35,323 nucleotides of DNA, taken from Deltaproteobacteria bacterium. Lineage in GTDB: Bacteria > Desulfobacterota > B13-G15 > RBG-16-54-18. The stretch's first letter is position 1; every line of letters starts with the position of its first letter. The notes below the pieces were generated by a model. That model saw nothing but the letters and a program-made list of their open reading frames with translations. It ran no database searches and was not told the DNA's origin. The position numbers were made by a program, and so were the translations under genes. The stretch lies in the NCBI GenBank assembly GCA_030672385.1, contig DAOVGN010000067.1, forward strand, positions 1-35,323, written 5' to 3'. Positions 19,587-32,591 of this stretch are shown one piece after another.

Positions 19587-20957
19587 CTATTCCTTTTTTA
19601 GGTTGTATTTTTTGATCTTATTATAGAGGGTGACGCGATCGATCTCCAATATCCCAGCCGATTTTTGGATATTCCAATTATTTTCGTCCAAAATTTTTAA
19701 TATATGTTGTTTTTCAGTAGCTTTTAAGCTCTTTTCTTCTCGGGATTGTGACAGACTTTCTTCCTCCATTACTTGAGGGGATAGGTGCAGATCCTCTGCC
19801 TTGATGAAATTTCCCTTGGCGATGACCATGGCACGCTCTATCACATTCTCCAGCTCCCGCACATTGCCAGGCCAGTCGTATTTCATCAACATATCCAACG
19901 CCTCTTCTGCGATCCTTGCGACCTTTTTCTCCATCTCTATGTTAAACTTTTCTATAAAGTGATGGACCAAGAGGGGGATGTCTTCTTTTCGTTTCCTTAG
20001 GGGAGGTAGCTCTATGGAGATGACGTTCAGGCGATAATAAAGATCGTCTCTGAATTTCTCCTCCTCTACAGCCCTTTTCAGGTCACGGTTGGTAGCGGCG
20101 ATGATGCGCACATCGACCTTGGTCGGGCTTGTGCCTCCAACCCGAGTGAACTCCTTCTCTTGTAAAACCCGAAGGAGATTGAGTTGCACCTTGGGACTTA
20201 TATCTCCGATCTCATCCAAGAATATGGTACCGTCGTTGGCAAGCTCAAACTTCCCCTTTTTCTGTGTCTTGGCGTCGGTAAAGGCCCCCTTCTCATGTCC
20301 GAAGAGTTCGCTCTCGAGTAACGTTTCGGTCAGGGCGACACAGGAGACAGGGATGAAAGGTCCGTTGAACCGCAGGCTCTCATTATGGATTGCCCTTGCC
20401 AGAAGTTCTTTCCCCGTACCGCTTTCGCCCAAGATCAAGATGTTGGAGTTGCTTTTAGCTACGGTGCGGGCGAACTCGAACATCTTTTGCATCTTGGGAC
20501 TCTTGCTTATAAGGTCATGAAGTTGGTATTGCTTTTTGAGCTCCTTGCGCAGGTAGGATATTTCCTTCACTAACTGCTGGCTATCAATCAGCTTCTTGAT
20601 GAGCAGGGATATCTCTTCGGGATTGAAGGGTTTGACTAAATAGTCATAGGCCCCCTTTTTTATGGCCTCAACGGCCGTATTGACGGTGGCATAGGCGGTG
20701 ATCATGATCGACTGAACCTCCGGGCGGATCTCCTTTATCTTCTCCATCAATTCAAGGCCATCCATCCTTGGCATCTTTAAGTCCACCAAGGCTATATCCC
20801 AGGGTTTCTCCTTGATCTTTTCCAGGGCCTTGAAGCCGTCCTCAGCGGCTTCTACATGGTATCCATCCTCTTGAAGCCAATCAAGCAGGGAACTTCGCAC
20901 AATTTCTTCATCGTCAACTATCAGTATTTTTACATCTTCTTTCATCCCCTTCTCCAT
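19587..20957 (-). CDS. NtrC-family sigma-54-dependent response regulator
   Basis: Receiver domain (ILIVDDEEIVRSSL), AAA+ (LGESGTGKELLARAIH, GHEKGAFTDA), C-terminal Fis-type HTH. Confidence 0.95.
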   Translation of the reverse strand: MEKGMKEDVKILIVDDEEIVRSSLLDWLQEDGYHVEAAEDGFKALEKIKEKPWDIALVDLKMPRMDGLELMEKIKEIRPEVQSIMITAYATVNTAVEAIKKGAYDYLVKPFNPEEISLLIKKLIDSQQLVKEISYLRKELKKQYQLHDLISKSPKMQKMFEFARTVAKSNSNILILGESGTGKELLARAIHNESLRFNGPFIPVSCVALTETLLESELFGHEKGAFTDAKTQKKGKFELANDGTIFLDEIGDISPKVQLNLLRVLQEKEFTRVGGTSPTKVDVRIIAATNRDLKRAVEEEKFRDDLYYRLNVISIELPPLRKRKEDIPLLVHHFIEKFNIEMEKKVARIAEEALDMLMKYDWPGNVRELENVIERAMVIAKGNFIKAEDLHLSPQVMEEESLSQSREEKSLKATEKQHILKILDENNWNIQKSAGILEIDRVTLYNKIKKYNLKKE

Positions 20958-20995: not shown

Positions 20996-22615
20996 TTAGC
21001 CCATCCCTTGTTCCTCTATAGGGGTACTTGTCTCAGTTGCCTTGGGCTTAATCGGCAACTTGAAGATGAAGGTGGTCCCCTCGCCCACTTTGCTCTTTAC
21101 CTCGATAGTGCCCTGGTGAGAGTTGGTAATCCCATAGACCACCGATAACCCCAACCCTGTACCCTGCTCCTTGGAGGTAAAGAAGGGGTCAAAGACCCTG
21201 GGCAGGTCTTCTTCTGCAATACCTACCCCGTTGTCTTTGATATCTACCTTGACCATTTGTTCCTCTTCCGAAAATATGGTGGTGATGGCCAATCTACCGT
21301 TATCTTTAATTGCCTCGCAGGCATTGAGGATGATGTTGACGAAAACCTGCCTCAGTTGCATAGGGTCGGCCACGATAGGGGGGAGCTGGCCAAACCTCTT
21401 CTCTAATTTAATCTCTTGCAAGGCTATTTGATTGGTCAAGAGTGATAGGGCTTCATCCATCACCGCATTGATATCCACATTGGGCTTCAAGGAGGGCTCC
21501 CTTTGTCGAGCAAAGTCGAGGAGGTTTCTCACGATGCTGCTGCACCTCTCCGTTTCCCTCTCCATGATCGCCAGATGGGAGCGGAACTTAGGGATGTCGT
21601 CTCTACTGAAGCGTTCCTTGTTTAGCTTCTTTTCCATCAGCTTAGTATAGGTCATGATTCCACTCAAAGGGTTGTTTATCTCATGGGCGATGGTGGCGGC
21701 CAACTTGCCGATGGAGGCAAGCTTCTCCGACTGCAAGAGCTGGTATTGGGCCGCTTTCAGTTCGGAAGTCCTTTCCTCCACCTTTTCCTCTAAGGTTCGT
21801 ATCAATTCTTTAATATCATTATCGGCCTTTTTCAGCCTTTGTGTCATCTTGTTGAAGGATTCGGCCAGTTGCCCGATCTCGTCCTGCGAGTGGGAGGTGA
21901 AGTGGTAGTCAAAATCCCCTGCTGCCACCCTGGTCGTCCCCTCGGCCAACTCTTTGACCGGCCGATAGACCGCCCTCTGGATAATCAGACCGATAATGGT
22001 GGAGACCGCCAGGATGGTGATGGCCGCAAAAAATGTAGTCTTATCCCTAATCTCTTTTATACTTTTATCCGTGTCGGCCAGAGAGACTGAGACATCAAGT
22101 ACCCCCAAGACCTTCTGCTCAGGAGGATGGTAATGACACTGGGCGTTATAGCAATCGGGCTCATTGTAGATGGGATTGATCATCCCCAACACCCGGTGCT
22201 TCCCAACCTTGAAGATCCTGCTCCTCTTTGGGATGTCCAACCTCTCCAGTGGCTTATCTACAGCATGGCAGGCGTAGCAGGCCTCTGCCCTTTTCCCCAC
22301 CATTTTGCCTATCTCCTCCTTGTCGGAGGAGAACTGGATCTCCCCCTCTTTGTTGAATATCCTTACCTTTTCTATCCCCTCCTGTGTTCCAACGGTTTCA
22401 ATCGAGTTGTAGAGGGCCTCCCGATAGTTATGCAGCATGTCAAACCTGAGGCTCCTCTTCAACGTGCCACTCAACTGTTTGGCCCCAAGGATGGCCTCAT
22501 CGAGCAGGTGTCTCCGTTGGACAGTTAAATTGACATAGGCGAAGGTCCCGATCACAATAACTGTGATTACCCCTACCCAAAAGATGAGCTTAACACTTAA
22601 ACTCCGGTACCACAT
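20996..22615 (-). CDS. Membrane sensor histidine kinase with c-type haem-binding motifs in the sensor region
   Basis: N-terminal TM; CYACH and CYNAQCH motifs; second TM, HAMP, HisKA (TIAHEINNPLSGI), HATPase (VKVDIKDNGVGI, GTGLGLSVVYGI). Confidence 0.93.
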   Translation of the reverse strand: MWYRSLSVKLIFWVGVITVIVIGTFAYVNLTVQRRHLLDEAILGAKQLSGTLKRSLRFDMLHNYREALYNSIETVGTQEGIEKVRIFNKEGEIQFSSDKEEIGKMVGKRAEACYACHAVDKPLERLDIPKRSRIFKVGKHRVLGMINPIYNEPDCYNAQCHYHPPEQKVLGVLDVSVSLADTDKSIKEIRDKTTFFAAITILAVSTIIGLIIQRAVYRPVKELAEGTTRVAAGDFDYHFTSHSQDEIGQLAESFNKMTQRLKKADNDIKELIRTLEEKVEERTSELKAAQYQLLQSEKLASIGKLAATIAHEINNPLSGIMTYTKLMEKKLNKERFSRDDIPKFRSHLAIMERETERCSSIVRNLLDFARQREPSLKPNVDINAVMDEALSLLTNQIALQEIKLEKRFGQLPPIVADPMQLRQVFVNIILNACEAIKDNGRLAITTIFSEEEQMVKVDIKDNGVGIAEEDLPRVFDPFFTSKEQGTGLGLSVVYGITNSHQGTIEVKSKVGEGTTFIFKLPIKPKATETSTPIEEQGMG

Positions 22616-23914: not shown

Positions 23915-24838
23915 CTACCCCTCCTCTCTTTCTAAGAAGGTCTTTATCAAAAGGTCCCGCTGCGTCTGCTCCAGCGCCTTCTGCAGATTTCCTAACAAAT
24001 TTCCACCATCGCTCATCGTTACTCCGATCTCCGTCTGCAGGACGTGGTGAAGTCTGTCCACCTCCGTTTCGAGCCACCCTCGGGCCTTCTGGCCATGGAG
24101 AAATTGCTCTTCCTGCTGGTCCAGACGGGACAGCTCTCCTGGGTCTGGTTTCATCTCTAACAGCCAGCCTTGACCGTATGGATCAGCACTGATCAAGGAG
24201 GTGTCTCTGCATGTCTCGTCATTTACCTGTACTATCGTACCATGCAAGGGTGAAGAGATTGCGGCCGTGCCCTGAGCAGATCTAAACTTCAACATAGGAT
24301 GACCGGGTTTTACGTGCTCCCCTTGGCGGGGAAGGATGATCTCCTCTATCTCTCCGAGCAACCACTGGCCAAAATCATCCATCCCCATTTTCAATCTTCC
24401 ATTGATCGGCTGTAGCCAGATGTGCCCCTTGTGGTAGTACATGGTATCGTCAAAAAGAAAGCCACGCACATTGATTGCCTCCCCTTGGGCTGGGGCGATA
24501 TCCCCCTGGGCAATCCTCTCATAGGCAGGACAATCGATGTAACGATCGGTGGTGCACGGGCACTCCAGCCTGAAACAACTGGCCGGGATCATCTTCTTCA
24601 CAGGATAGACTTTGCAATATATTACCATCTCCACCTCTAGAAAAGGACATATCTTGTTTTTAGAATAAGAGGTTTTCTCTCCCATCTTATCCTGATAGGT
24701 GGAACAATGGATATAATCCTCCCTAAAGCATAGGTTGTCCTTGAGATAGAGCCTATCAAAAGGGAGCATCTTTTTGATAGGAAAGGCCCTACAAAAAGCC
24801 ACCCTCTCTTCTTTTAAAAATGGACATCTTGTTTCCAT
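23915..24838 (-). CDS. GcvH-like (lipoyl-domain fold) protein with two N-terminal Cys-rich repeats
   Basis: N-terminal duplicated CPFLx..VxxCxx.PxKKMxP..C....YIxCxxY modules; then GHIWLQPINGRLKMGMDDFGQWLLGEIEEIILPRQGEHVKPGHPMLKFRSAQGTAAISSPLHGTIVQVNDE..DPYGQGWLLEMKP aligning to GcvH; TAGGAGG RBS. Confidence 0.8.
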   Translation of the reverse strand: METRCPFLKEERVAFCRAFPIKKMLPFDRLYLKDNLCFREDYIHCSTYQDKMGEKTSYSKNKICPFLEVEMVIYCKVYPVKKMIPASCFRLECPCTTDRYIDCPAYERIAQGDIAPAQGEAINVRGFLFDDTMYYHKGHIWLQPINGRLKMGMDDFGQWLLGEIEEIILPRQGEHVKPGHPMLKFRSAQGTAAISSPLHGTIVQVNDETCRDTSLISADPYGQGWLLEMKPDPGELSRLDQQEEQFLHGQKARGWLETEVDRLHHVLQTEIGVTMSDGGNLLGNLQKALEQTQRDLLIKTFLEREEG

Positions 24839-25880: not shown

Positions 25881-27896
25881 GTGGTAGGGGAGAGGAGAAG
25901 TATAAGGAAGTTTGCCCACCCGTTTGTTCTTTTTCTTTTGACCTCCTTTTTGTTGTTCTCGTTGACAGGTGTTTCCCCTGCCATAGAGAACGAAGAATGT
26001 CTCGAGTGTCATGGGATGCGGGATATCCTCGAGATGAGTGAAGAAGAAAGGCTTGAGATGGTAATCCCCACCCCTGGAAAGAAGAAGGTTAGGAAGGGAA
26101 AGCTTACCTTATTCGTAGACTACGAGAGGTTTCGTTCTTCGTCCCATAGTGAATTAAACTGCATAGATTGTCATGCTAACATTAGTGATCTTCCCCATCC
26201 CCAGAGGATGGATATGGTGGACTGTGCCGCTTGTCATGATGAGATTATGGAGGAGTATAAAAAGAGCAAACATGCCAGAGTAAGCAAAAGACTCTGTTAC
26301 GAATGTCATAATCCCCATACTACTATCTCTTTCAGGAGGCTTGCCCAAAAGGAGAGGATAGAGATTTGCCTCCAATGTCACAAAAAAGAAGAGGGACATA
26401 CGTGGTTGCCTCAAAGAGAGCTTCACTTCCATTACTTAGAGTGCGCTGTCTGCCATGCCCCCGAGGCCGAAAAAGGGCTCTTTTTCCACCTCTCAACCCA
26501 GGGGGAGGAGGATAGGGAGAGGGTTCTCCTGTCCTATCAACAATTGAAGGATTTCGCCGGTGAATACAAGGGGAATGTGACAAAGGCCATCGACCCCAAC
26601 GAAAATGGCCTTGTAGAGGTTCAGGAGATTACCGGTTTTATCGCCAAGCTGAAGGAGGGAGGGATAAGAAGCCCTCGGCTTGAAGAAGAAGTCCTGGTAT
26701 TGAAGCCCTATCATAACTACACCGATGAGGTTGAGCATCTTAAAGATTGTACCATGTGTCATACTTCGGGGGCGCCCTTTTACGACCACGTCATGCTCCG
26801 GATACCCGATGAAAAAGGAGGATGGCGCACCATTAAGATGGATAAGGCCATCATGGCGAAGTTGCCGCCCATCCTCTCCAAAGACTATTACTTTACAACG
26901 TCCCATGGAAAGAGCGGAATAGAATGCATAGACTGCCATGCAGATTTGACTATTCTGCGTGATAAGGAGGGGTCCCGGGTCAAGAAACTGGGGACACCGA
27001 TCTGCGAGCAATGTCATGAGGAAATAATGGCGGAGTACAGAGATAGCTTACATGCCAAGGTCAGCAAGGAGCTTTGTTTTGGCTGTCATGATCCTCATTC
27101 CAGCGTGCCCTTCAGAGAGTTAAGCGTGGATCAAAGGAAGGCCATATGCATGAAGTGTCACGACCCGGAACGGAGCCACGACTGGCTGCCTCAAAGGGGG
27201 ATCCACTTTAGGTATTTGGAGTGTACCATGTGCCATGCTCCCCAGGCAGAGAAGGGGATTGTCTTTTTTCTCCAGGGGGTAGACAAACAGGGGAGGAAGA
27301 ACAGGCTTGACTACAGAGAGGTGGCCGAATTGTTAGGGATGGAGAATCCCGACTTGGTGAGCTTGGTGGACAGCGACGGCAGTGGGTTTTTGGATGACAG
27401 GGAAGTCCTTTCCTTCCTCCAGTTAATCAGGAAAAAGAGCCGGCAGACTGTAGAGTTCGGGGTAAATGTCTTGGTGCTGAGGTCTTCCCATAACTATACT
27501 GATAAGGGGACCAAGGCGAAGGATTGTTCGCTGTGCCATTCCTCGGGGGCGGAGTTCTATTCTAAGGTGATCATGGAAATACCAGAACGCGAAGGCGGTG
27601 TAAGGACTATTCCTATGGACAAGAGTATCCTGGTGGGGATTTCCCCGATTCCGGTTACCAGCGATTTTTACCTGCTGGGGGAGGGCAAGATCTCCAAGAG
27701 GGATATAATGGAACTTAAAGATGCAATTTACAAGAGGCTTACCCCAGACTTCATTTATGTGGTAAGGAAGATCGGATATAAGTGGCTGGATGTCATAGGT
27801 CTTCTGTTCATCGTTGGTGGCCTGGCTTTTGTGGGTTTGCATGGGTTGATCAGGGTATTGACGATAGGGATGAGGAGGAGAAGGCGCCAAGATTAA
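25881..27896 (+). CDS. Multihaem c-type cytochrome (13 CxxCH) with two EF-hand-like loops and a C-terminal TM anchor
   Basis: Signal peptide; 13 CxxCH counted by eye; DPNENGLVEVQE and DSDGSGFLDDRE EF-hand loops; C-terminal VIGLLFIVGGLAFVGLHGLI. Confidence 0.93.
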   Translation: MVGERRSIRKFAHPFVLFLLTSFLLFSLTGVSPAIENEECLECHGMRDILEMSEEERLEMVIPTPGKKKVRKGKLTLFVDYERFRSSSHSELNCIDCHANISDLPHPQRMDMVDCAACHDEIMEEYKKSKHARVSKRLCYECHNPHTTISFRRLAQKERIEICLQCHKKEEGHTWLPQRELHFHYLECAVCHAPEAEKGLFFHLSTQGEEDRERVLLSYQQLKDFAGEYKGNVTKAIDPNENGLVEVQEITGFIAKLKEGGIRSPRLEEEVLVLKPYHNYTDEVEHLKDCTMCHTSGAPFYDHVMLRIPDEKGGWRTIKMDKAIMAKLPPILSKDYYFTTSHGKSGIECIDCHADLTILRDKEGSRVKKLGTPICEQCHEEIMAEYRDSLHAKVSKELCFGCHDPHSSVPFRELSVDQRKAICMKCHDPERSHDWLPQRGIHFRYLECTMCHAPQAEKGIVFFLQGVDKQGRKNRLDYREVAELLGMENPDLVSLVDSDGSGFLDDREVLSFLQLIRKKSRQTVEFGVNVLVLRSSHNYTDKGTKAKDCSLCHSSGAEFYSKVIMEIPEREGGVRTIPMDKSILVGISPIPVTSDFYLLGEGKISKRDIMELKDAIYKRLTPDFIYVVRKIGYKWLDVIGLLFIVGGLAFVGLHGLIRVLTIGMRRRRRQD

Positions 27897-27908: not shown

Positions 27909-28589
27909 ATGGTCGGTAACGGTAAGAGTAGAGAATTTTTACATCCACTCTCGGTGAGGATTTGGCACTGGGTGCATGCGATTGCCATCGTTTTGCTAGT
28001 GCTTACCGGGATCCAGTTGCGGTTTCCCGATTTGGTCAACTGGTTTGGAACCTTCAAGAGGGCGGTGAACATCCATAACATTTTTGGCTTTATCGTATTA
28101 TTTGATTACTTCCTCTGGTTTGGTTTCTATTTGGTTAAAAAGGAGTTGATTAAACAATATGTCCCCACGATGAAGGATTATACTTCAGGCATCCCCACAC
28201 AATCAACCTATTGCTTCGCCCGTATCTTTTTTGGCGATCGACCTCCCTTTGAGTCCACTCGCAGGGAGAAGTTTAATTCCCTGCAGAAAACCACCTATTT
28301 TGGCATCATGTTTGTCCTGGTCCCCCTACAGATAATAACCGGTGTCCTTCTCTGGGACCTGAAGAGGTTTCATTTTATTGTGGAGGCGTTAGGTGGAGTG
28401 AGAATAGTGGATGCCTTTCACATCATCGTAGCTTATGTCTTTGCATCTTTCCTAGTGGTCCACATCTACCTTTCCACCTTGGGTCACACCTTCTTTGCCC
28501 ATTTCAAGGCCATGATTGTGGGCTATGAAGAAAGGGAGATAGCGGAGGTTGAACCGGAGGAGACAGTTCCTAGACAAGATTTCGATTGA
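27909..28589 (+). CDS. Cytochrome b/b6-type integral membrane protein
   Basis: Several TM segments with conserved His (VRIWHWVHAIAIVLLVLTGIQLRF, NIHNIFGFIVLF, DAFHIIVAYVFASFLVVHIYLSTLGH); directly after the cytochrome c gene. Confidence 0.88.
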   Translation: MVGNGKSREFLHPLSVRIWHWVHAIAIVLLVLTGIQLRFPDLVNWFGTFKRAVNIHNIFGFIVLFDYFLWFGFYLVKKELIKQYVPTMKDYTSGIPTQSTYCFARIFFGDRPPFESTRREKFNSLQKTTYFGIMFVLVPLQIITGVLLWDLKRFHFIVEALGGVRIVDAFHIIVAYVFASFLVVHIYLSTLGHTFFAHFKAMIVGYEEREIAEVEPEETVPRQDFD

Positions 28590-30093: not shown

Positions 30094-30552
30094 TTACTCC
30101 ACCGGGTAACCGGCCTTCATCCAGGCCTTCCAGCCACCCGCCATGCTTACGGCATTTTTATACCCCATCTGTTTCAGGGTGTGAGTAGCCAGGGCGGACC
30201 TACCTCCGCTCTTACAGTAGGTGATAATATAGTCGTCTTTATTGGGTATCTTGCTGGCGACCTTAAACTCCAGCAGTCCTCTGGGGATGTTTATGGCCTT
30301 GGGCAAGTGGCCTCTTTTGAACCCTTTTTCCGTCCTTACATCCAGGACCTTCACAGGTGCGCCGGAGTCTATCTTGGCCTTCGCCTCGGCCACCGTGATC
30401 TCCGTGATATTCGCCTTGGCCTCCTTGACGAAGTCCGCAGCGGTCTTCTCCCCAGCCGCCGTGGTGGTGACATAGGCAGAGAGTGCCAAGACCAGGGCCA
30501 CCAAGATGATCCATACACCCTTCATCCGACGAAATTCCTTCATCTCCTTCAC
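30094..30552 (-). CDS. Exported rhodanese-like protein
   Basis: Signal peptide; VLDVRTEKGFKRGHLPKAINIPRGLLEF...YCKSGGRSALATHTLKQMGYKNAVSMAGGWKAWMKAGYPVE. Confidence 0.92.
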   Translation of the reverse strand: MKEMKEFRRMKGVWIILVALVLALSAYVTTTAAGEKTAADFVKEAKANITEITVAEAKAKIDSGAPVKVLDVRTEKGFKRGHLPKAINIPRGLLEFKVASKIPNKDDYIITYCKSGGRSALATHTLKQMGYKNAVSMAGGWKAWMKAGYPVE

Positions 30553-30582: not shown

Positions 30583-31929
30583 CTATCTGGACCGAGGGAC
30601 AGCATCTTTCGGGACGATTACCTTCTTATTGGCCTCCCGCTCCTGCGGTGCTACATCCTGTTCCAGGAGAAAGAGCTCCTTTTTCCCGTGACAAGAGTTG
30701 CAGCTCTTGGTCTGGGGGGTTGTGCGCTGGATGTTATGAGGGGTGGCCATCTTCCAGTTGGGAAGGGCATCGAAGTTGGCCAGCCCGTCCTTTACATAGA
30801 AATCAAAAGTTCCCTTGCTCACCGGGATATGGCGAACGGTGATGAACTTATAGGGCCTGTTTTTATTGGGGTTCGGGTTCAGCCCGATCTTGAACCCAAG
30901 CTCGCTCTTGTCCGTCTTGAAGTAGGGAAGCCCTTTGGCGTCCTTTCCCACGTGACAGTTGTAGCAGTTTTTGTAGGTCACTGAATGGCATACGTGACAA
31001 CTCACCTTCCCTCGGTGCAGCCTATGGGTCTTGATCTTGGCCTTGGGACTCGCTGCATCCTGGTGGCAGTTCTCGCACCGGGGGGCATTCTCCACCTCAT
31101 AGCGATGGTTGAAGTTTTTCCCCATGCCGTGCATCTCCTCACCGGTGTGGCAGGCGATGCACTCCATCCCCTTCTTGGCATAGTGGGCATCGCCAGGTAC
31201 CCCAGGATTCTTGCCAAGATACTCCTTTTCAACCCTGCTGCCGTGGCATGAGGTGCAGTTGGTCTCCATGGGGGGGGTCTTATGGAAGAGATGACCCGCC
31301 ACAAACCCCCCTTCCACCGAATCTGGACGGGAGACATGGCACTGGCCACAACTGCTGTGACATTGGAAGCAGTGAGTTTTCATCCCCTTGAAGACCTTTT
31401 CCCTGACCGCCTTATCCGTACTGGCCCGCACGCCGACAAGGTGGCTGAATCCGCTAAGGCTTATGTGGACATTGGTCTTGTTCTTCGCGACGATCTCCTC
31501 ATGGCACTCACCACAGGCATTGGTGGCATTAGGGTATGTCGGATCGGGAATCATACCTTTGTGGGCGACCTTCCAGTTGGCGGCCTTGGGGTTTCCGCCA
31601 TGACATGCCTCACAGGCGATCTCCCCATGGGGATCTTCATCAAGGAATTCCTCATCTATCAGTACCTTCTCATATGGCTCCAACGGAGCCAGCTCTCCCC
31701 CTCACCCCTCCCCCTTGGACTCAGCCGATTTCTGACAAGGTCTCTTGCTCTTGGCGGCGATCTCCCTCGTGATCTTCACCAGGTCTTTTACTGAGGTATG
31801 GCAGGAGATACAGGTGCTCCCCTCTTGGGTCTGTACGGAATCTACGGTGCCCCAGATGAGGAAACATCCCACAAAAATCAGGGGCACCAACCACAGATAC
31901 CAGAGTTCTTTGCCTTTTTGCCGCAACAT
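30583..31929 (-). CDS. Multihaem c-type cytochrome, 11 CxxCH in total, interrupted by one in-frame TGA (31702-31704); candidate selenocysteine/recoded or nonsense codon
   Basis: ORF-track entries 31702..31929 (signal anchor + CISCH) and 30583..31683 (10 CxxCH, no signal peptide) are in the same frame: ..CQKSAESKGEG[TGA]GGELAPLEPYEKVLIDEEFLDEDPHGEIACEACHGG... Confidence 0.8.
31675..31691 (-). other. Hairpin just downstream of the in-frame TGA (SECIS-like candidate)
   Basis: TGA-GGGGGAGAGC-TGGCTCC-GTT-GGAGCCA: 7-bp stem, GTT loop beginning 17 nt after the TGA. Confidence 0.35.
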
Positions 31930-31931
31930 TT

Positions 31932-32591
31932 TTACCTCCTTTCCCTTAACTGTACCCTTATCTCAATCTCTTGTGGGGTTGCACACCCCCTTAATGAAGA
32001 GACCATCCCTTGGACAGTCTTGGAGATAATGGACTTGGTGAAGGGTCGCAGGGGGATAATCTCCCCATCTACCCACAGGGTGGCATCGACTCCTTTATGT
32101 ATGGATATGACCCGTTCTTCGATGATATCGGCTACTCTGGTGATGTCATTTGGGCTAAGACAGGGGATATCCATCTGGAGGGGTTCATCGCTCACCACGG
32201 CGATCAGGTTCTCCAGCTCCGATGCCAGGGGATGGGGATGGACCTCTTTTCTGAAGACCTCCACTTTAGGGTGTCTGTCTCGCTTAAATCCCTCCGCAAC
32301 GATGATGTCCGCCCCACGGATAAACCGAGCAGCCAGTTCGTCCAGGGGGAGGTCCCGAGAGACATCCTCTACCAGGGCGACCCTCTGCGGCGAGGAGATG
32401 ACCACTGTTTGGGCGCCGGCCTCTTGGTGGCGCCAGCTATCCTTTCCCTTGTGATCGATCTCAAAACTGTCTACGTTATGTTTAATGGTGGCTACCTGAT
32501 AGCCACGTCGGATGAGCTCTGGGATCAGTCGTTCAATAAGGGTGGTCTTCCCGCTCTTGGACCTCCCAACAATGGAAATGATAGGTATCAT
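31932..32591 (-). CDS. mobB: MobB-like molybdopterin-guanine dinucleotide biosynthesis GTPase with C-terminal extension
   Basis: IISIVGRSKSGKTTLIERLIPELIRRGYQVATIKHNVDSFEIDHKGKDSWRHQEAGA. Confidence 0.9.
   Translation of the reverse strand: MIPIISIVGRSKSGKTTLIERLIPELIRRGYQVATIKHNVDSFEIDHKGKDSWRHQEAGAQTVVISSPQRVALVEDVSRDLPLDELAARFIRGADIIVAEGFKRDRHPKVEVFRKEVHPHPLASELENLIAVVSDEPLQMDIPCLSPNDITRVADIIEERVISIHKGVDATLWVDGEIIPLRPFTKSIISKTVQGMVSSLRGCATPQEIEIRVQLRERR

Follow-up and report, generated by a model that had tools for sequence, protein, structure and literature searches.

An in-frame TGA very probably decoded as selenocysteine in a family of predicted eleven-haem cytochromes c with a rhodanese partner

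The question raised by this locus is whether the single TGA that interrupts a multihaem cytochrome gene of a Deltaproteobacteria bacterium ends one gene or is decoded as selenocysteine (Sec) within it. The window, by which we mean the whole stretch of 35,323 nucleotides that was analysed (contig DAOVGN010000067.1), carries on its minus strand two open reading frames, 31702..31929 and 30583..31683, which lie in one frame, as the first-pass annotation had claimed, with the TGA at 31704-31702 being the sole stop between them. The count of haem motifs given there also holds, with the hydrophobic segment and one CxxCH (CISCH) lying upstream of the TGA and ten CxxCH lying downstream, 11 in total. 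If translated alone, the second half would have to begin at the TTG at 31683, with no other start being offered there, and it would have no export signal, again as claimed; this TTG sits in the apical loop (31684-31682) of the hairpin discussed below. The coding sequence, the ATG of which is preceded by AGGAGG, is based on homologues of full length that carry this in-frame TGA as well, and is listed with its neighbours in Table 1.

Table 1. Coordinates of the Sec-cytochrome locus and of its adjacent genes in the window
Feature	Position	Strand	Details and basis
Predicted Sec-containing 11-haem cytochrome c CDS	30583..31929	minus	ATG start, TAG stop; 448 residues if the TGA is decoded as Sec76
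Putative Sec codon TGA (Sec76), motif GEG-U-GG	31702..31704	minus	TGA in 71/71 aligned members (selected for one readable TGA) and in 73/73 distinct main-group sites
Hydrophobic helix near the N terminus (residues 10-34), either a membrane anchor or an export signal	31828..31902	minus	sequence and AlphaFold2 helix
First haem motif (CISCH), before the Sec codon	31798..31812	minus	sequence, alignment
Haem motifs 2-11, the ten CxxCH that follow the Sec codon	30688..31614	minus	sequence, alignment
Candidate bSECIS hairpin with a stem of 7 bp and the GUU loop at 31684-31682	31675..31691	minus	covariation, codon freezing, bSECIS criteria
Exported single-domain rhodanese, active-site loop YCKSGGR	30094..30552	minus	PF00581 at 7e-23, 81.5 bits; 30 bp downstream of the cytochrome
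mobB-like gene	31932..32591	minus	ends 2 bp before the cytochrome start

The joined protein combines several CxxCH motifs with an export signal, the features by which a multihaem c-type cytochrome is recognized. All 11 motifs are retained in 69 of the 71 aligned family members, and this alignment has nine invariant His residues outside the motifs versus 11 haems, from which up to two haems may lack a conserved distal His. The AlphaFold2 model of the cytochrome has a pLDDT of 90.6 and a pTM of 0.84; the fold search of the PDB with this model gave no match below E 0.001, and the sequence search of the PDB gave weak haem-repeat matches only, with UndA being the best (2.6e-06).

The homologues do not end at the position of the TGA, but continue in the readthrough frame. 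A search of 59 relatives gave eight homologues of full or almost full length, distributed over seven genomes, including the window's own, with the others being 48-81% identical to the window protein, each having exactly one in-frame TGA, and with the common motif KSxExxGEG-U-GGxVxPLxPxEK around it. Across the phylum (395 genomes), one in-frame TGA is present in 50 of the 52 matches at E 1e-40, the two exceptions being L082, which ends at a contig edge before the site, and L074, which has another residue; in a further class-wide search the TGA is present in all 23 matches. In the diverse alignment, where the other 70 rows are 35-72% identical to the window, all 71 rows have TGA at the codon, but it should be noted that these rows were selected for one readable TGA, and thus the unselected 50 of 52 and 23 of 23 are the fairer measure. 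Counted over distinct main-group sites, TGA stands at the Sec codon in 73 of 73, which is far beyond chance, and in all the same TGA together with the hairpin is found in more than 100 related genes. From a scan of GTDB genomes the best 80 of 387 relatives were kept, and these include the complete chromosomes of the cultured Desulfosarcina alkanivorans PL12 and D. widdelii PP31 (L097 and L107) as well as two MAGs labelled Spirochaetes. One locus, L155, was considered as a TGA-less member and was rejected, as its TGA is present and a frameshift lies in a T-run just behind it.

The codons around the TGA show that both sides are translated. At the Gly codons −3, −1 and +2 the first and second bases are fixed while the third base varies nearly freely (1.94, 1.75 and 1.84 of 2 bits, respectively, over the 73 main-group sites). 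This freedom of the third bases implies translation on both sides of the TGA.

Behind the UGA the constraint is of another kind. The hairpin starts 10 nt behind the UGA, with its loop 17 nt from the codon, and the folding energy is −12.2 kcal/mol over 48 nt. The published bSECIS model has a loop of 3-9 nt with a G in its first two places and a stem of 4-16 bp, located 16-37 nt from the UGA, and an MFE of at most −7.5 (PMC13188914); the window hairpin lies within every one of these bounds. Compared with shuffles, the energy of the single sequence is ordinary (z −1.0), and the case for the hairpin therefore rests on covariation and codon freezing. In the alignment of eight hairpin sequences, 97.9% of the cells are paired, both sides have changed in 4 of 6 stem pairs versus 0.7 in shuffles, and sliding the arms abolishes the pairing; among 42 distinct stems, each of the inner six pairs is kept in 37 to 42. 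Moreover, the codons inside the hairpin (+5 to +8) are, as judged from the alignments, frozen beyond what the protein would need, with Pro being CCG in 68 of 68, Leu being TTG in 71 of 71 and Glu at +5 being GAG in 37 of 37. The two arms trade codons with each other, in the combinations GAG..GCT (34), GCT..GAG (28), ACG..GCG (4) and GCG..GCG (1), so that the peptide alternates between EPLAP and APLEP while the stem is kept.

A natural control for the identity of the bSECIS is provided by one clade in which the TGA has been replaced. In the genus of genome G338, where the cytochrome is fused to a rhodanese, the frame is open with no stop, and a Tyr codon, TAC or TAT, stands at the three sites that were read (L074, L195 and L196); at these same sites the hairpin is gone. 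It appears, then, that TGA and hairpin were lost together, as would be expected of a SECIS. The first-pass annotation had named Cys or Sec at the aligned residue as support for Sec, and of these the Sec codon is what occurs throughout, whereas Cys occurs in none of the homologues sampled, the position holding only Sec or, in this one clade, Tyr. Cys homologues are usual for selenoproteins, although they are not required.

The genome of the window (G000, a draft of 104 contigs, 93% complete) has all of the decoding machinery that the first-pass annotation had listed for checking: the tRNA-Sec(UCA), SelB (a match of 407 bits), SelA and SelD, the SelD gene itself carrying an in-frame TGA. The presence of this machinery is permissive and not diagnostic. 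The co-occurrence of the family with SelA was also considered as proof of Sec and was dropped, since SelA is found in 355 of the 395 genomes of the phylum; the SelA match was absent in four family-positive genomes (G008, G076, G156 and G163).

Based on these data, the explanations of the TGA can be weighed. A recent nonsense mutation, a pseudogene or a sequencing error at 31702-31704, which the first-pass annotation had kept as an alternative, would need just one base change in a draft genome of 104 contigs; it is nevertheless excluded, for all aligned members share the TGA at this codon, over many families of the phylum and in closed, single-contig genomes, with the frame behind it intact and the hairpin covarying. 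That the locus is a conserved operon of two distinct genes, a doubt that was raised by Fujita et al. 2007 for the Geobacter protein (PMC1914089), also has a very low probability. In the main group the TTG at 31683 could indeed start the second frame, but the codons from the TGA to this TTG are under protein constraint, with the third bases free at Gly +1 and +2, and this freedom in the flanking codons answers the operon alternative; in addition, the TTG belongs to the hairpin loop and is not followed by an export signal, a corresponding codon is missing in the subgroups of L075 and L083, and the Tyr clade has a single open frame through the site. Hardly more probable is that the UGA is read through with a residue other than Sec, by a suppressor tRNA or by programmed readthrough. 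This would be compatible with evidence from sequence only, but TGA terminates other genes here, as the first-pass annotation had stated and as can be seen at xseA, which ends at 2902 with the next frame starting from 2899 (an ATGA overlap); moreover, the gene has a bSECIS, the genome has SelB and tRNA-Sec(UCA), and the hairpin vanishes where the TGA does. Readthrough as Sec, which the first-pass annotation had offered, thus gains support from the conservation of the TGA, from the hairpin and from the presence of SelB, tRNA-Sec, SelA and SelD, and we consider it very likely that the UGA at 31702-31704 is decoded as selenocysteine. By comparison among genomes, the conserved TGA, the SECIS, the translation across the TGA, the machinery and the rhodanese partner may be regarded as established.

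We next consider how this family is related to systems already described. Sec-containing multihaem cytochromes were previously known from very few families. An inventory of 119 selenoprotein families of 2026 includes ExtKL, the GSU2204 beta-barrel and a TIGR04315 octahaem cytochrome in its Sec form (PMC13188914), and the eleven-haem architecture is matched by none of these three. The nearest precedent is ExtKL/MccSep (NF040886; GSU2937+GSU2936; PDB 9wt8 and 9wt9), for which a role in selenite reduction has been proposed (PMC5877670). It has in common with the window protein that it is a cytochrome c with several haems, a single in-frame TGA as Sec and the look of two reading frames, that it is clustered with a rhodanese (ExtH there), and that it occurs mainly in the same phylum. 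The differences are that ExtKL has 5 haems versus 11, that its Sec site is C-terminal behind the haems (AGHxIPDG-U-PTPNR) whereas that of the window family lies between haems 1 and 2 (GxG-U-[GA]G), and that a SECIS is clear in the window family whereas none was found for the Geobacter protein by Fujita et al. 2007 (PMC1914089). NF040886 (cut-off 250 bits) gave no match to the window protein at E 10 and none in the window genome at E 1e-10. Elsewhere, at G035:C12:96118-98740, two adjacent genes of the ExtKL family (491-493 bits) have no in-frame stop and are apparent non-Sec paralogues.

The TIGR04315 family of tetrathionate reductase octahaem cytochromes is likewise multihaem, and Sec-containing members of it are annotated in GenBank and listed in the inventory (PMC13188914); it has, however, eight haems versus eleven, and the window protein is unmatched by TIGR04315 (cut-off 375 bits) even at E 10. 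The best NCBIfam matches are weak and of partial coverage, resembling the haem repeats, namely ExtM (NF040943) and the DmsE-type decahaem cytochromes (TIGR03508 and NF041028), with scores of 45, 25 and 24 bits versus cut-offs of 800, 192 and 325, respectively; ExtM and the DmsE-type cytochromes are absent from the selenoprotein list (PMC13188914). The MtrC/MtrF-like domain II/IV and the cytochrome c7/c3 domains (PF22113, PF14522 and PF14537) match stretches of the protein above the gathering score, but they are generic haem-repeat domains, none of which extends over the Sec region or over the full length. With no NCBIfam model above its cut-off for the window protein, we take the family to be an undescribed selenoprotein family, as judged against NCBIfam and the open-access literature.

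The neighbourhood of the gene bears on its function. The rhodanese that follows in the window has a PF00581 match over the gathering score and the active-site Cys loop, and the gene directly behind the cytochrome is a same-strand rhodanese in at least 64 of the 75 loci that had sufficient sequence (55 of them like that of the window and nine of a longer type), which is a lower bound as some of the apparent absences stem from antisense frames in the greedy picking of genes. Moreover, family f102 has fusions of the cytochrome with rhodanese domains, and eight of the fetched frames of fusion length (L185, L186 and L188-L193) have the TGA and the same hairpin. The downstream rhodanese and the fusions together tie the cytochrome to the transfer of sulfane sulfur or selenium; the association indicates sulfur or selenium chemistry, and does not point to a substrate. 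The mobB-like gene is probably co-transcribed with the cytochrome in the window, and it is not a conserved neighbour across the family loci. In three loci (L096, L100 and L101) a PhsC-like cytochrome b lies directly behind the Sec cytochrome.

The best reading is that the exported 11-haem cytochrome and the rhodanese would handle sulfane sulfur (or selenium), a substrate that we infer, and the following pathway can be envisaged. The bSECIS hairpin would direct tRNA-Sec and SelB to decode the UGA as Sec. The protein would be exported via its N-terminal segment and then be loaded with 11 haems c, with Sec76 placed in the loop between haem 1 and haem 2. The exported rhodanese would bring a sulfane-sulfur (or selenium) group, the selenolate of Sec76 would take over the group held by the rhodanese, and the haem chain would supply or remove electrons, exchanging them with a periplasmic pool, where the reaction may run in either direction. 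The cytochrome-rhodanese pair would then act in the periplasm as an oxidoreductase of sulfane sulfur in the form of polysulfide, persulfide or thiosulfate. We put forward this reading, with the selenolate as the site that accepts the group from the rhodanese and the haem chain as the conductor of electrons, only tentatively.

Two other functions have to be set beside it. It may be that the protein is a selenoprotein serving the reduction of selenite or tellurite, as has been proposed for the Ext cluster (PMC5877670). That cluster likewise joins a Sec cytochrome with a rhodanese, ExtH, which the fused rhodanese of L074 matches weakly (37 bits); on the other side, the cytochrome is not ExtKL, the porin or bc-type genes of ext are not among the common neighbours of the family loci, and the wide occurrence in genomes resembling those of sulfate reducers suits sulfur at least as well, and we regard this function as rather unlikely. 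The other is that Sec is an axial ligand or a second-shell residue of a catalytic haem and not a group-transfer nucleophile. It is in line with this that 11 haems stand against nine invariant non-motif His, and that the residue taking the place of Sec in the sample is Tyr, which could ligate a haem or serve as an active-site phenol, and in no case Cys, although less conserved residues may supply the His ligands; on balance such a role is unlikely. Tyr is incapable of thiol-like chemistry, and with Tyr as the sole replacement the idea of Sec acting only as a redox nucleophile is weakened; the Tyr clade calls for caution and suggests either a role near a haem or an altered function in that clade. 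A more specific form, to which we likewise give a low probability, is that Sec76 would be the distal ligand or neighbour of a haem with no conserved His, and that this site would carry out the redox conversion of the sulfane sulfur or selenium delivered by the rhodanese. We know of no counterpart of a selenolate-haem catalytic centre of that kind. The cytochrome-rhodanese fusions make the chemistry testable.

The family adds a widespread Sec cytochrome to those known, present in Desulfobacterota-type genomes and in the two MAGs labelled Spirochaetes. Standard gene calling splits such a Sec cytochrome in two, and searches for Sec/Cys pairs would miss the family since Cys homologues are lacking. 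If the proposed function is true, annotation would have hidden a system for sulfane-sulfur redox chemistry in the periplasm of sulfate reducers and their partners.

Finally, we note some other observations on the family loci and the window. A PAS-domain regulator of sigma-54 type is near the Sec cytochrome in 33 of about 79 loci (for example L095:2474-3826), at a median of 0.8 kb upstream, and perhaps regulates it; formate dehydrogenase-like subunits occur within a few kb in 11 loci (L089, L101, L103, L108, L132, L151 and others). Both kinds of neighbour were named by eye from the sequence and are not counted in the system. In the window, a second multihaem cytochrome of 671 aa with doubled CXXCH motifs (25881-27896, plus strand) is followed by a PhsC-like b-type cytochrome (27909-28589, plus), and this pair is convergent to the Sec-cytochrome operon. 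A protein of 307 aa (23915-24838, minus) has a GcvH-like domain behind two Cys-rich segments and is below all NCBIfam cut-offs. A sensor histidine kinase (20996-22615, minus) has CYACH and CHYH in its N-terminal sensor part and is possibly a haem sensor; it is adjoined by an NtrC-type sigma-54 response regulator (19587-20957, minus).
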